Below the pieces are notes generated by a model. The model did no database searches and was not told the DNA's origin. It saw nothing but the letters and a program-made list of their open reading frames with translations. A DNA stretch of 64,000 nucleotides from Vagococcus xieshaowenii (GTDB lineage: Bacteria; Bacillota; Bacilli; Lactobacillales; Vagococcaceae): NCBI RefSeq assembly GCF_004792515.1, contig NZ_CP038865.1, forward strand, positions 766,001-830,000, read 5' to 3'. Shown here piece by piece: positions 10,843-19,431 of the stretch (its first letter is position 1; the number at the start of each line of letters is the position of its first letter). A program made the translations under genes and the position numbers.

Positions 10843-12585
10843 ATGAAAAAAACTAAGATTGTATGTACGATTGGGCCTGCTAGTGAAACAGTTGAAACAC
10901 TTGTAGAATTAATTAACGCTGGGATGGACGTTTGTCGTTTGAACTTCTCACATGGTGATTACGAAGAACACGGGAACCGTATTAAAAACATTCGTGAAGC
11001 AGCAAAAATTACAGGAAAACGCATCGCGATTCTTTTAGATACAAAAGGACCTGAAATTCGTACAAATAACATGGAAAACGGTGCAGTAGAATTACTTACT
11101 GGCGAAACTATCCGTATTTCTATGGAAGAAGTTTTAGGAAATGCTGAGCGTTTTTCAGTTACTTATCCAGAATTAATCAACGATGTTGAGGTTGGTGGAC
11201 ATATTCTTTTAGATGACGGTTTAGTTGATCTAGAAGTAATGGAATTGGATCATGCTAATGGAGAAATCGTTACGCGCATCTCAAATGACGGTACATTAAA
11301 AAATAAAAAAGGTGTTAATGTGCCAGGTGCTTCAATTAATTTACCTGGTATTACAGAAAAAGATGCATCTGATATCCGTTTTGGTATCGAACAAGATGTT
11401 GATTTTATCGCAGCAAGTTTCGTTCGTCGTCCAAGCGATGTATTAGAAATTACTAAAATTTTAGAAGAAAACGATGCAACACATATTCAAATTATTTCTA
11501 AAATCGAAAACCAAGAAGGTGTTGATAATATCGACAGCATCTTACAAGTTTCAGCTGGTTTAATGGTTGCTCGTGGTGACTTAGGCGTAGAAATCCCAAC
11601 AGAAGAAGTACCAGTTGTACAAAAAGAATTAATCAAAAAATGTAACGCTGTAGGTAAAACAGTTATTACAGCGACTCAAATGTTAGATTCTATGCAACAT
11701 AATCCACGTCCAACACGTGCTGAAGCAAGTGACGTTGCCAATGCTATCTACGATGGTACTGACGCAATCATGTTATCTGGTGAAACAGCTGCCGGTGATT
11801 ATCCAGTAGAAGCTGTTACAACAATGGCGCGTATTGCATTACGTACAGAAGACGCATTAGTTGATCAAGATGTATTTGCATTGAAACGTTTTAGCCAAAC
11901 TGATACAACTGAAGCAATCGGTCAATCAGTAGGACATACAGCACGTAACTTAGGAATCAAAACAATTGTTGCAGCAACAGAATCTGGCTACACTGCTAAA
12001 ATGATTTCTAAATATCGTCCAAAATCTCATATCGTAGCAATGACTTTCGATGAAAGAAAAGCACGTAGTTTAGCTTTAACTTGGGGTGTATTCCCAGAAG
12101 TAGCTGAAAAACCTGAATCAACAGATGATATGTTTGCTCGTTCAGCTGAATTAGTTCAAGACTTAGGTTTTGCTAAAGAAGGCGATTTAGTTATTATTAC
12201 TGCTGGTGTTCCAGTAGGTGAACGTGGAACAACTAACTTAATGAAAATTCATTTAATTGGTTCTAAATTAGTTTCTGGACAAGGAATTGGTGACAAACCA
12301 GTATCTGCTCATGCTGTAGTAGCAACAACTGCTGAAGAAGCAACAGAAAAAATGACTGAAGGCAGCATTTTAGTTGTGAAAACAACTGATAAAGATTACA
12401 TGCCAGCAATCGATTTAGCTAGTGCTTTAGTAGTAGAAGAAGGCGGCTTAACATCTCATGCAGCTGTAGTAGCAATTGCTAAAGGTATTCCTGTTATTGT
12501 TGGAGCTGCTGGAGCAACTTCATCAATCGAAGCAGGAAAATTAATCTCTGTTGATCCTAAAGCAGGCGACGTTTTCTTAGGATAA
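10843..12585 (+). CDS. pyk: Pyruvate kinase
   Basis: Makes pyruvate and ATP from PEP and ADP. At 580 residues it is the long Bacillus type. The barrel carries IGPAS near the start, the catalytic lysine in SKIENQEG (about 221) and GETAAGDYP. After the allosteric domain there is an extra C-terminal domain resembling the PEP-utilising mobile domain, with GGLTSHAA and its histidine near residue 538. The role of that domain is not settled in other species. It is co-transcribed with pfkA and closed by a strong terminator. Codon choice is clean and biased, as expected of a highly expressed gene. Confidence 0.97.
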
Positions 12586-12608
12586 TATATTCTAATAGTT
12601 AGACATTA

Positions 12609-12645
12609 AAGAATAGAAACTGAATAGTTTCTATTCTTTTTTTTT
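12609..12645 (+). terminator. Terminator of pfkA-pyk
   Basis: AAGAATAGAAACT and AGTTTCTATTCTT form a perfect 13-base-pair stem with a four-base loop, followed by a long T run. Confidence 0.93.
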
Positions 12646-14710: not shown

Positions 14711-15583
14711 ATGAAAGTAATACAGTGGTTCCCTGGTCATATGGCCAAAGCTAGAAGAGAAGTAACAGAAAAGTTGAAATATGTCGATATTGTCTTTGAA
14801 CTAGTGGACGCTCGTCTACCTATTTCAAGTCGTAATCCTATGTTAGATGAAATTGTACAACATAAACCGCGCTTAATGTTATTAAATAAAGCTGACTTAG
14901 CGGACCCTATTCAAACACAAAAATGGCAACAACATTTTGAAAAGCAAGGATATTCAACATTAAAATTAAACTCTCAAGAAGGAAGAGGCGTTAAACAAAT
15001 CGTTCCTGCTGCCCAAGAAGCATTAAAAGAAAAACGTGAACGTCAAAAAGCAAAAGGGATTAAAGAACAACCCATCCGTGCAATGATTATTGGTATACCT
15101 AATGTTGGAAAATCTACATTGATGAATCGTTTAGTTAAGAAAAATATCGCAAAAACTGGAAATAAGCCGGGTGTAACTAAAGGCCAACAATGGTTGAAAG
15201 TTGGTAATGAGCTAGAGTTATTAGATACACCAGGTATTTTATGGCCTAAATTTGAGGATCCAGAAATAGGGAGAAAACTTGCTTTAACAGGTGCGATTAA
15301 AGATAATTTACTTCATCTAGATGATATTGCATTATATGCTATTCAATTTTTTAATGATTATTACCGTGAATCATTAGGTAAGCGTTATGCCTTTTCAGAA
15401 GATGATTATGCGCTAAATAATGTCGATCAATTGATGTTGATTGCTAAAAAACGAGGCTTTAGAGATGATTATGAACGTGCTAGCGAAATGTTGATCCAAG
15501 AAATTCGTACAGGTCAAGTGGGACGCTATACCTTAGATCGTGTGGAAACATGGGAGGAAGAACAGCTTGACACTAACGATTAA
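14711..15583 (+). CDS. rbgA: Ribosome biogenesis GTPase RbgA (YlqF)
   Basis: A circularly permuted GTPase required for late assembly of the 50S subunit. The permutation is visible: the G4 motif NKAD (59-62) comes before the P-loop GIPNVGKST (128-136) and the G3 motif DTPG (about 173-176). The family's N-terminal WFPGHMAKA (6-14) is present and the length of 290 residues is typical. The C-terminal all-helical domain binds rRNA. An AAGGAAG site precedes the ATG. Its last 17 bases overlap the start of rnhB, and the rbgA-rnhB pairing is widespread in Firmicutes. Confidence 0.96.
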
Positions 15584-16331
15584 AGAAGTAAAAACGCTTT
15601 TGCTTGATCGTGAGACATCAAACCAAGTCATTGCAGACTTACGTTTAGATGAAAGAAAAGGCGTACAAACATTATTGGCTCAATATGATCGTCGTATTGA
15701 AAAAGAGAAAAAAGCCCAAGAATTGTTTGAATATATGCAGACATATGAGCGTGAGGCTAGGCATCATCAATATCAGTTAATTGCGGGAATTGATGAAGTG
15801 GGCCGTGGGCCGTTAGCTGGTCCCGTGGTAGCTGCAGCGGTTATTTTACCAGAAGAAGTAGATTTAGTAGGTATTAATGATTCTAAACAATTAAGTCATG
15901 CAAAGCGTGAAATTTTGTTAGATAAGATTAAGGCACAAGCGTTGGCAATTGGGATTGGGATTGTTTCACCAGAAGAAATTGATCGAATTAATATCTATGA
16001 AGCAACAAAAGTAGCGATGATTAAAGCGATTCAACAACTTAAGCCAACGCCAGATTATTTATTGTTAGATGCGATGAAGCTACCGACTATTGCTCTTCCA
16101 CAAGAATCTATCATTAAAGGAGATACTAAAAGTATTTCAATTGCTGCAGCAAGTATAGTGGCAAAAGAAACAAGGGATCAATTGATGAGCAAATATGATC
16201 AACAATACCCAGGTTATGGATTTGCTGATAATGCAGGCTATGGAACAGCTAAGCATTTAGAAGGGCTAAATACATTAGGCATTACACCTATCCATAGACG
16301 TACCTTTGCACCTATTAAAGATATGATTTAA
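15567..16331 (+). CDS. rnhB: Ribonuclease HII
   Basis: Cleaves RNA in RNA-DNA hybrids and at single ribonucleotides in DNA. The start is taken as TTG 15567, nine bases after GGGAGG, which gives a 254-residue protein beginning MTLTIKEVK, like Bacillus RnhB. An ATG nine codons upstream would have no ribosome site. An N-terminal extension (about 1-70) precedes the catalytic core, which opens with [12 protein letters not shown] (metal ligands Asp76, Glu77), continues with DSKQLS, and has a further acidic residue in LLLDAMK. The gene overlaps rbgA and ends just ahead of a hairpin that also contains the dprA ribosome site. Confidence 0.95.
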
Positions 16332-16337
16332 AAAATG

Positions 16338-16386
16338 AAAGCCACTCTTAATCACTAATATAATTAGTGAAAGGGAGGCTTTTTTT
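16338..16386 (+). terminator. Terminator hairpin that also contains the dprA ribosome site
   Basis: The 5' arm (16338-16359) pairs with the 3' arm (16363-16382) around a three-base loop, with one mismatch and a two-base bulge, and a T run reaches directly to the dprA ATG. The only ribosome site for dprA, AGGGAGG, is inside the 3' arm. The structure therefore looks like both an intrinsic terminator and a translational block. Confidence 0.85.
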
Positions 16387-17298
16387 ATGACTAATCAACG
16401 TTTTGAATTATTTTTATTAAAACATTTACATGGTATTGGTAATAAAGGGCTACTAAAATTGCTCAATCATATTATATTAAACGGAGAAACAATTAAAAAT
16501 TATGCTGCAACTGACTTAATGAGGATAGCAGGCGTTTCAACACGTTATCAACCACTATTTGAACAAAGTGTTAAGATGATTTGGAATCATCAGGATGAAT
16601 TATTAGAAGCGTTTTATCGTACCGAATTTCTAACTATTATGGATGAAGATTATCCGATGTTATTATTAGAAACATACAATCCGCCTGTTGGTTTATTTTA
16701 TAAAGGGGATAAAAAACTATTGAGAAATGCCACTTTAGCAGTAGTTGGTACACGTGAAGCAACGTCCTATGGTAAAAAGCTAACTAATAAAATAGTTGCG
16801 GATTTAATTAAGCAACAGTATACTATCGTAAGTGGACTAGCTAAAGGTATTGATACATTTGCACATCAAGAAGCAATAGCAGCTCAAGGTCAAACTATCG
16901 CGGTTGTTGCACATGGTTTAGATAAAATTTATCCTAAAGAAAATGCAGAACTCTTTGAGAAGTTGTCCACTAGTCACTTAGTTTTATCCGAATATAAGGA
17001 AGGGACTTTACCAAAGAAACATCAATTCCCTATGCGCAATCGAATCATTGCAGGTCTATCACATGGTGTTTGTGTGATAGAAGCCAAGCAACGAAGTGGT
17101 TCACTCATTACAGCACAACAAGCTTTAGACAATAATCGAGAAGTATTTGCAGTTCCAGGACCAATTGATGCGTCTAATTCGGAAGGTTGTCATGAATTGA
17201 TCCAAAATGGTGCAAAACTTGTGACATCTGCCAACCATATAATAGAAGAAATTAAACAATTTCGACTAGATAATGTTGACAAACGTTTGACGAAATAA
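16387..17298 (+). CDS. dprA: DNA-processing protein DprA
   Basis: Loads RecA on incoming single-stranded DNA during natural transformation. The 303-residue protein has a short N-terminal helical region (1-75) and the extended Rossmann fold with VGTREATSYG, SGLAKGIDTFAHQ, the DNA-contacting MRNRIIAGLS and RSGSLITAQQAL, ending with a short C-terminal part without the winged-helix domain some homologues have. The ATG follows a T run, with GGGAGG buried in the preceding hairpin, so expression from the rnhB side should be low. A promoter for dprA itself is not obvious. The topA promoter begins inside its last codons. Confidence 0.94.
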   Translation: MTNQRFELFLLKHLHGIGNKGLLKLLNHIILNGETIKNYAATDLMRIAGVSTRYQPLFEQSVKMIWNHQDELLEAFYRTEFLTIMDEDYPMLLLETYNPPVGLFYKGDKKLLRNATLAVVGTREATSYGKKLTNKIVADLIKQQYTIVSGLAKGIDTFAHQEAIAAQGQTIAVVAHGLDKIYPKENAELFEKLSTSHLVLSEYKEGTLPKKHQFPMRNRIIAGLSHGVCVIEAKQRSGSLITAQQALDNNREVFAVPGPIDASNSEGCHELIQNGAKLVTSANHIIEEIKQFRLDNVDKRLTK

Positions 17299-17304
17299 TA
17301 ATAT
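17276..17304 (+). promoter_or_regulatory. Promoter of topA
   Basis: A perfect TTGACA -35 within the dprA 3' end, a 17-base spacer and TAATAT, about 49 bases ahead of the topA start. Confidence 0.65.
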
Positions 17305-17352
17305 ATGATACGATTTAAAAGTAGAATCGTTAAATAAAGGTGGTTAGTCGGC

Positions 17353-19431
17353 ATGGTATTTAAATATTTGGTGATTGTAGAATCACCTGCAAAAGCAAAG
17401 ACTATAGAAAAGTATTTAGGAAAAAATTATAAAGTGGTCGCAAGTGTCGGTCATTTAAGAGATTTACCAAAAAGCCGAATGGCCATAGATTTTGAACATG
17501 ATTATGAGCCAGAATATATCTCAATTAGAGGTAAAGGCCCAATTATTAAAGAATTAAAAAAACAAGCAAAAAAAGCCCAAAAAGTTTATCTCGCAAGTGA
17601 CCCGGATAGAGAAGGGGAAGCCATTGCGTGGCATTTGGCTCATTTGTTAGATTTGGATTTAAATGATGATAATCGTGTAGTATTTAATGAAATTACCAAA
17701 GACGCGGTTAAAGCAGCATTTAAAGAACCAAGAAAAATTAATCTAGATTTAGTCGATGCGCAACAAGCTCGACGTATTTTAGATAGAATTGTTGGTTATT
17801 CTATAAGTCCATTATTATGGAAAAAAGTAAAAAAAGGTCTAAGTGCGGGACGTGTTCAATCGGTTACACTTAAAATGATCATTGATCGTGAAAATGAAAT
17901 TAAAGCGTTTATTCCAGAAGAATATTGGTCTATCACAGGTAATTTCTTAAAAGGACGTAAGAAATTTAAAGCAGCCTTTTATGGGATTGATGACAAAAAA
18001 ATGGCATTAAAAAATACAGATGAAGTGCAAGATGTTCTTAAAAAGATAGACAATGATCAATTTGAAGTAACGGATATTATTAAAAAAGAACGAAAACGTA
18101 ATCCGGCTAAACCATTTACAACAAGTAGTTTACAACAAGAAGCTGCAAGAAAAATTAACTTTAGAACACGTAAGACGATGATGGTCGCGCAACAGCTTTA
18201 TGAAGGAATTGCTATAGGTAAAGAAGGTACTGTCGGGTTAATTACATATATGCGTACGGATTCAACTCGTTTGTCTGATACAGCAAAGACAGAGGCAGCT
18301 AAATATATTACAGAAACCTATGGCGAGGAATACTCTGTTGGGATGAAGGCTGATGGTAAGAAGAAATCTGGTTCTCAAGATGCCCATGAAGCGATTAGAC
18401 CATCTAGTATTTTTAGAACACCTGAATCATTAGCTAAATATTTAGACAAAGATCAAATGAAGTTGTACAGCTTAATTTGGTCTCGTACAGTGGCTAGTTT
18501 AATGACGCCTGCCGTTTTAGATACAATGCGCGTTAGTTTGACACAAAACGGAGTCATTTTTGTCGCTAATGGCTCTAAAGTGAAATTCCCTGGATTCATG
18601 AAAGTTTATATTGAAGGTAAAGATGATGGCAAAGAAGAAAAAGAAAATATCTTGCCTGATTTGTCTGTAGGAGAAATGGTTAAATCGGTTGATATTGAAC
18701 CGAAGCAACATTTTACTCAACCACCTGCAAGATATACTGAGGCAACTTTAGTTAAAACGCTAGAAGAAAACGGTGTAGGACGCCCCTCAACTTACGCGCC
18801 GACATTAGAAACCATCCAACGTCGCTATTATGTGAAGTTGGTCCAAAAGAGATTTGAACCAACAGAATTAGGCGAAATCGTTAATGAGTTAACAGTCGAG
18901 TTCTTCCCCCAAATTGTTAATATGAAATTTACAGCTGAAATGGAAACAGAGCTAGATAATATTGCCTTAGCAAAAGAAAAATGGGTAGATGTTATTGATA
19001 GATTTTACAAGCCATTTAAGGTAGAACTGGATAAAGCAGAAGTTGGAATGGAGAAGGTACAAATCAAGGATGAACCAGCTGGTTTTGATTGCGAATTATG
19101 TGGCTCACCAATGGTCATAAAACTAGGCCGTTTTGGTAAATTCTATGCTTGTAGTAATTTTCCTGAGTGTCGTCATACATTAGCAATTGTTAAAGAAATT
19201 GGGATGAAGTGTCCAACCTGCCATGAAGGCGAAGTTATTGAACGTAAGACGAAGAAAAATCGTATTTTTTATGGATGTAGTCGATACCCTGAATGTGAAT
19301 TTACTTCTTGGGATAAACCAATTCCAAGAGATTGTCCAAAATGTAATCATTTCTTAGTTGAGAAAAAAGTAAAAGGTGGCAAACAAGTCATCTGTAGTCA
19401 TTGTGACTATAAAGAAGAAATTCAAAAATAA
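17353..19431 (+). CDS. topA: DNA topoisomerase I
   Basis: A type IA topoisomerase that relaxes negative supercoils. The 692-residue protein begins with the Toprim domain ([17 protein letters not shown], later [12 protein letters not shown]). The catalytic tyrosine is in [10 protein letters not shown], near residue 299. Three C-terminal zinc-ribbon units follow, with cysteine pairs CELC/CSNFPEC, CPTC/CSRYPEC and CPKC/CSHC. AGGTGG precedes the ATG by nine bases. Order dprA-topA-trmFO-xerC-hslV-hslU is conserved in Bacilli. Confidence 0.97.

Follow-up and report, generated by a model that had tools for sequence, protein, structure and literature searches.

In T4, I-TevI RNA from an upstream promoter folds and hides the Shine-Dalgarno sequence (SD), whereas RNA from the promoter adjacent to the gene lacks the 5' arm of the fold and leaves the SD free (excerpt of PMC2988022). 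The same excerpt names similar arrangements for I-TevII, I-TevIII, segB and Aeh1 mobE, and also for soc and e (PMC2988022). The element described here, located directly upstream of dprA in Vagococcus xieshaowenii and its relatives, has its predicted logic in common with the T4 late genes, namely an SD that is hidden in RNA from upstream and freed by an internal promoter. It differs from them in that it lies on a bacterial chromosome, that its putative internal promoter belongs to the late-competence class, and that the hairpin is also terminator-like, with a U-tract that forms the spacer between SD and start codon. The transposase genes of IS10 and IS50 are a further precedent: in RNA that reads in from outside, the ribosome site is covered by pairing, and the element's own promoter starts past the first arm. 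Those systems guard a mobile element; the dprA element, which adds a terminator, would guard a core competence gene.

On the promoter side, the pneumococcal ComX motif is given as TTTTTN..TTMCGAATA with transcription starting about 8 nt further on, and streptococcal ComX/SigX promoters are described as a T-rich stretch followed by (A/C)CGAATA (passages of PMC6560143), which resembles the box found before most comGA and coiA genes of the genomes studied here. Five leaders from a family that we take for streptococci (f4), as well as the S. suis loci, have, judged by eye, a separate terminator-like hairpin just 5' of this box (com-box) and no T-run after the SD, unlike the dprA element. Our literature search among open PubMed Central papers found no report of such an element at dprA, nor of a com-box inside a terminator. 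The principle is known; the place, a competence gene, and the merged terminator appear to be new.

Computation reveals, ahead of dprA, a conserved and covarying hairpin, a T-run, a com-box in relatives and a difference in SD accessibility between read-through RNA and RNA started internally. The reading that we consider probable is that a single sequence of about 50 bp acts as a composite switch with three jobs. In RNA arriving from upstream, the element would work as an intrinsic terminator and end the rnhB operon. Where transcription reads through, the 3' arm would keep the dprA SD paired in the RNA and dprA would stay untranslated. As DNA, its 5' arm and loop would form a late-competence promoter, presumably read by a sigma factor of the ComX/SigX or SigH type. 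RNA begun in the loop or the 3' arm, where we predict the start site, would form no hairpin, would not stop at the T-run and would have its SD free; expression of dprA would then be restricted to its own promoter and to competence, with a corresponding effect expected on the amount of DprA.

The rnhB-dprA junction in the window

The window is the whole stretch of V. xieshaowenii DNA that was analysed (64,000 nucleotides), and all coordinates refer to its + strand. The gene 5' of dprA is rnhB (ribonuclease HII; 15540-16331), recognized in profile searches and adjoining dprA in all 27 genomes of the same family that have enough flank. The dprA gene itself (16387-17298) starts with the ATG at 16387 and encodes 303 amino acids (TIGR00732, 5.5e-78; PF02481, 1.6e-82). 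The 55-nt gap between the two genes holds one terminator-like hairpin (16337-16383), composed of a 5' arm (16337-16359), a loop (16360-16362) and a 3' arm (16363-16383), whose 20 pairs form blocks of 7, 5 and 8, interrupted by an A.A mismatch and a small AA bulge.

The original prediction had placed a hairpin behind rnhB, with AGGGAGG in its 3' arm and a T-run touching the dprA ATG, and both statements are confirmed: the SD AGGGAGG occupies 16372-16378, and a T7 run (16380-16386) abuts the start codon, serving as U-tract and SD-to-ATG spacer at once. The minimum free energy (MFE), which had been suggested as a check, is -20.0 kcal/mol compared with a mean of -7.06 (sd 2.52) for dinucleotide shuffles (z -5.13), and was reached by 0 of 200 shuffles. 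A stable stem followed immediately by a U-tract (MFE -20, T7) is the form expected of an intrinsic terminator; a simple terminator scan did not list the hairpin, the stem being broken by the mismatch and the bulge. Of the window's 60 ORFs with 100 aa or more, dprA alone combines a start-adjacent T-run of at least 5 with an upstream MFE of -15 or lower. Elsewhere in the window, a terminator-like hairpin with a T-run is found at 12608-12639, 3' of a gene (10843-12585) that we take, by eye, to be pyruvate kinase, and upstream of the gene string leading to rnhB.

A hairpin of this kind could belong to a ligand- or protein-controlled attenuator or riboswitch, with an anti-terminator that frees the SD, and some attenuators do have this form, a terminator whose 3' arm contains the SD. 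We regard this explanation as very improbable at the dprA locus: no Rfam match to a riboswitch or other known RNA family was obtained at E 1 or better within 15900-17400, the gap in the window species has just 55 nt, and no conserved second stem was seen by eye in the leaders inspected.

Conservation and covariation of the hairpin

A DprA match was present in 29/29 genomes of the family, and 28 dprA leaders were scored; across the whole analysis two rows were dropped, one because the dprA start was not found near a contig end (L029) and one because the start was wrongly called (L171). As controls we used the leaders of comGA and coiA from these genomes, with 29/29 for coiA and 24/29 for comGA, for which G005, G010, G022 and G023 had no assigned locus and G025 no start. 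Hairpins with a z of at most -3 occur in 25 of the 28 dprA leaders compared with only 2 of the 53 control leaders, T-runs of at least 4 in 25/28, and both together in 24/28. T-runs of at least 5 were found in 24/28 dprA leaders versus 1/53 comGA and coiA leaders. With hairpin and T-run also present in 23 of 26 sampled leaders of a second family (f3), the conservation in relatives that the original prediction had left to be checked is borne out. One family leader (L016) fails with the chosen ATG; a TTG start gives an SD and an interrupted T-run with a weaker stem (-10.6).

These comparisons bear on a simpler explanation, namely an ordinary compact layout in which the hairpin is the rnhB terminator, the SD overlaps it by chance or economy, and dprA is expressed by leaky read-through or from an unrelated promoter. 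Short gaps are indeed the rule (where rnhB lies upstream, its distance to dprA is at most 85 nt in 26/27 genomes), and a T-rich promoter box will in any case be complementary to a purine-rich SD. Against this stands the rarity of such folding among the comGA and coiA controls (2/53), and, taking this together with the placement of the com-box and the recurrence in f3 given below, we judge the compact layout unlikely.

The stem sequences vary widely among relatives while pairing persists. When 43 distinct leaders are aligned with a covariance model, 94% of the cells are paired, compared with 62-75% after shifting one arm by 1-3, and compensatory changes on both sides are seen in 12 of 13 pairs compared with 2-5 in the shifted controls; these values lean towards pairing because 14 of the same leaders had been used to build the model to which the alignment was fitted, and the alignment holds only model-matched leaders, whereas the hairpin z-scores are free of this bias. 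The model gave 56 matches, of which 12 were dropped (other strand of the palindrome) and 43 of the remaining 44 were distinct. At E 0.05 it detects 18/27 family sources, and the window is not among these: in the window genome its own dprA leader ranks third (E 2.2), and the two inspected of six matches elsewhere in this genome, L203 and L204, look like ordinary terminators. RNAalifold, applied to a sequence alignment of 24 of the 28 leaders (without L016, L031, L032 and L034), returned no pairs, in our opinion because arms of differing length fail to align by sequence.

The com-box and the accessibility of the ribosome site

A 12-base com-box matrix was trained on the 53 control leaders only (24 comGA and 29 coiA), with dprA excluded to avoid circularity. 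The box was confined to 14-58 nt 5' of the start, an earlier version having drifted to plain T-runs. The matrix consensus is TTTGCGAATATT, and in 45/53 training leaders the top-scoring box has its end 16-27 nt 5' of the start codon; some control leaders are without a good box, with scores of 0.2 to 1.8 in, for example, comGA of G004, coiA of G022 and comGA of G001.

Scored with this matrix against shuffles, 23 of the 28 family dprA leaders have a com-box at p 0.05 or better. The hairpin is present in 22 of these 23 leaders, and in 21 of the 22 the box is wholly within the 5' arm and loop, a placement that tells against the compact layout. When the 5' arms are aligned, many of them have a T-rich run followed by GCGTATA, GCGAATA, ACGTAC or GCAAATA, a pattern similar to the pneumococcal ComX motif given above. 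Outside dprA, the coiA leader of G025 (L124) has a com-box within an SD-pairing hairpin, without a T-run.

The corresponding position in the window species (16351-16362) holds a degenerate com-box, ATCACTAATATA, which aligns with the GCGTATA, GCGAATA or GCAAATA of relatives. Its score of 3.0 (p 0.12 versus shuffles of its own leader) is reached by 0.57% of the + strand positions of the window, and is the sole positive score among the 37 positions scored across the leader. The dprA com-box of the sister species G003 has p 0.30, and both species have T where the family mostly has G. The loop also carries TATAAT (16359-16364), a perfect match to a sigma-A -10 hexamer, which has a possible -35 partner, ATGAAA (16335-16340), matching at 4/6 positions with a spacing of 18 (10/12 overall). 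The original prediction saw no promoter inside the arm; this hexamer and the com-boxes of 23/28 family leaders do not support that statement.

In the window species, and perhaps in G001, which has TATAAT at the aligned place, a housekeeping sigma-A promoter could drive dprA constantly, with the hairpin merely insulating the gene from rnhB read-through, and the degenerate com-box of the window species and G003 would agree with this. We hold constant expression of this kind to be quite unlikely, because the -35 is weak, the site is one of four joint-best sigma-70 matches (10/12) in a region of 8 kb that has such matches at chance frequency (27 versus 30.9 in shuffles, thus no excess), and TATAAT is absent from two of the three congeners compared, G002 and G003, both of which have the hairpin and the T-run.

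The competence genes of the window species look kept, because its coiA leader has a good com-box (TTTGCGTATTAT, score 10.5), its comGA leader a fair one (TTTGCATATTTA, score 9.7), and the frames of comGA and of the two genes behind it, which by position we take to be comGB- and comGC-like, are open. Under the composite switch, the dprA com-box would have drifted in this species, and its internal promoter may therefore be altered or weak, or sigma A may read it by way of TATAAT. A start from the drifted com-box or from sigma A would in either case fall past the 5' arm. The predicted start region (16368-16372) is based in part on the usual -10 spacing. Its other basis is the pneumococcal box-to-start spacing (passages of PMC6560143).

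Where the RNA begins strongly affects the predicted state of the SD. In the window species, the computed cost of opening the SD is 12.8-12.9 kcal/mol for RNAs starting at 16290-16337, 5.7 from 16345, 3.2 from 16355, and between 2.6 at 16368 and 0.6 at 16372. For the family dprA leaders, the median cost is 13.6 kcal/mol in read-through RNA versus 2.6 from the predicted start (n=26; the SD rule found none in L016 and L020 of the 28), and the comGA and coiA control leaders have 2.5 (n=53). RNA begun at the predicted place lacks the 5' arm. The mean probability that the SD is unpaired shifts in the same direction, less sharply than the costs, with medians of 0.002 for read-through RNA, 0.45 for the predicted start and 0.31 for the controls. 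Accessibility from the predicted start is moderate, exceeding 0.6 in 7/26 dprA leaders, and it is below 0.3 in 26/53 control leaders too. In these computations the SD is thus paired in RNA from upstream, as in the T4-type systems.

One family genome (G012) provides a natural contrast. Its 102-nt rnhB-dprA gap has a separate terminator-like hairpin before the com-box; the com-box is kept (p 0.006), and the overlapping hairpin (z +0.5), the T-run (2) and the SD cost (2.4) are gone. Being one genome, it is a hint only, and in the compact layout termination alone could explain the loss.

The original prediction had further proposed that read-through RNA folds and hides the dprA start, and that this amounts to a two-level block. 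The first proposal holds for the SD, which is paired at the cost given above, but not for the ATG itself, which is outside the stem. The second is plausible for read-through RNA, given the SD cost and the terminator-like hairpin with its U-tract, but an internal promoter can pass it. A start within 16360-16375, giving a message without the 5' arm, had been named as evidence against the block. Such a start is what the family comparison predicts, and the "block" therefore becomes a switch that only an internal promoter can pass.

Spread, topA and candidate sigma factors

We searched 268 genomes outside the family, found a DprA match in 267, and scored 51 leaders, made up of 12 loci among the best matches and 39 of 40 picked from the matches listed. 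Hairpin, T-run, com-box and SD release are found together in 19/28 leaders of the window's own family, in 22/26 sampled leaders of f3, a sample that leans on one genus (12/26 from g25), and in 1/25 sampled from six other families (1/11 in f2, 0/5 in f4, 0/2 in f5, 0/2 in f7, 0/1 in f8 and 0/4 in f9), with a further family of the same order, f6, unsampled. Having been trained in the window's own family, the matrix may overlook box variants of other families, for example GCGGATA in f2. The f3 stems are of other sequence and have the same arrangement, a recurrence that the compact layout does not readily explain.

In f4, a com-box at p 0.05 or better was detected in 4/5 leaders, and the S. suis loci have ACGAATA or GCGAATA by eye. 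In three f4 leaders (L169, L186 and L189) the T-run of the upstream hairpin runs directly into the com-box, TTTTCGAATA, a layout that is a second way of merging a terminator with a competence promoter. Two leaders of f5g58 (L179 and L188) have hairpin, SD and T-run before dprA without a com-box, and their loop region, TATATATAG, is perhaps another promoter type.

We rate at a little better than even the wider claim that a terminator, an alternative-sigma promoter and the dprA ribosome site have been fused within about 50 bp and selected across at least two families of one order. Promoter choice would set the RNA fold, the competence sigma factor would control both transcription and translation of dprA, and leakage from upstream would be shut off twice.

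Downstream, a topA promoter-like site (TTGACA-17-TAATAT; 17276-17304) lies inside the 3' end of dprA. An exact TTGACA is found upstream of topA in 29/29 family genomes, 77-121 nt before the topA start; the -10 is biased because the site was chosen as the best in 150 nt, and the exact TTGACA in all genomes is still notable. With a terminator before dprA and a promoter-like site for topA, dprA therefore looks like a separate unit within rnhB-dprA-topA, and topA need not depend on the dprA switch. In S. mutans, topA rose 6.5-fold when dprA rose 45-fold (excerpt of PMC5069739), so dprA RNA need not stop before topA.

A SigH-type sigma factor is encoded in 29/29 family genomes, and a second short sigma factor in 24/29. 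The window genome has two short sigma-70-type genes (L140:1477-1998 and L139:1420-2007); one is SigH-like and lies beside a DUF1694 gene, and the other has a phage-holin-family gene about 580 nt downstream. Either is a candidate competence sigma factor. Overexpression of SigH in L. sakei raised dprA RNA 2163 +/- 1242-fold (excerpt of PMC3364868), a rise that would fit a dprA otherwise held very low.

The same genome includes a contig of 27.4 kb (C2; L136) whose first 20 kb closely match Enterococcus mobQ plasmids; 957 plasmid records match, 889 of them from Enterococcus, the best with 97.4% over the whole query.

A role of DprA is to deliver incoming DNA to RecA. In pneumococcus it also represses early competence genes (passages of PMC6560143). 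Unwanted DprA could therefore spoil the timing of competence. The element would explain how a late-competence gene is kept silent outside competence while placed in the housekeeping string rnhB-dprA-topA, a silence that the 2163-fold rise in L. sakei suggests. It would also provide a signature by which competence control could be recognized in the sequences of relatives of lactic acid bacteria, and a compact design, found in nature, for expression without leakage.
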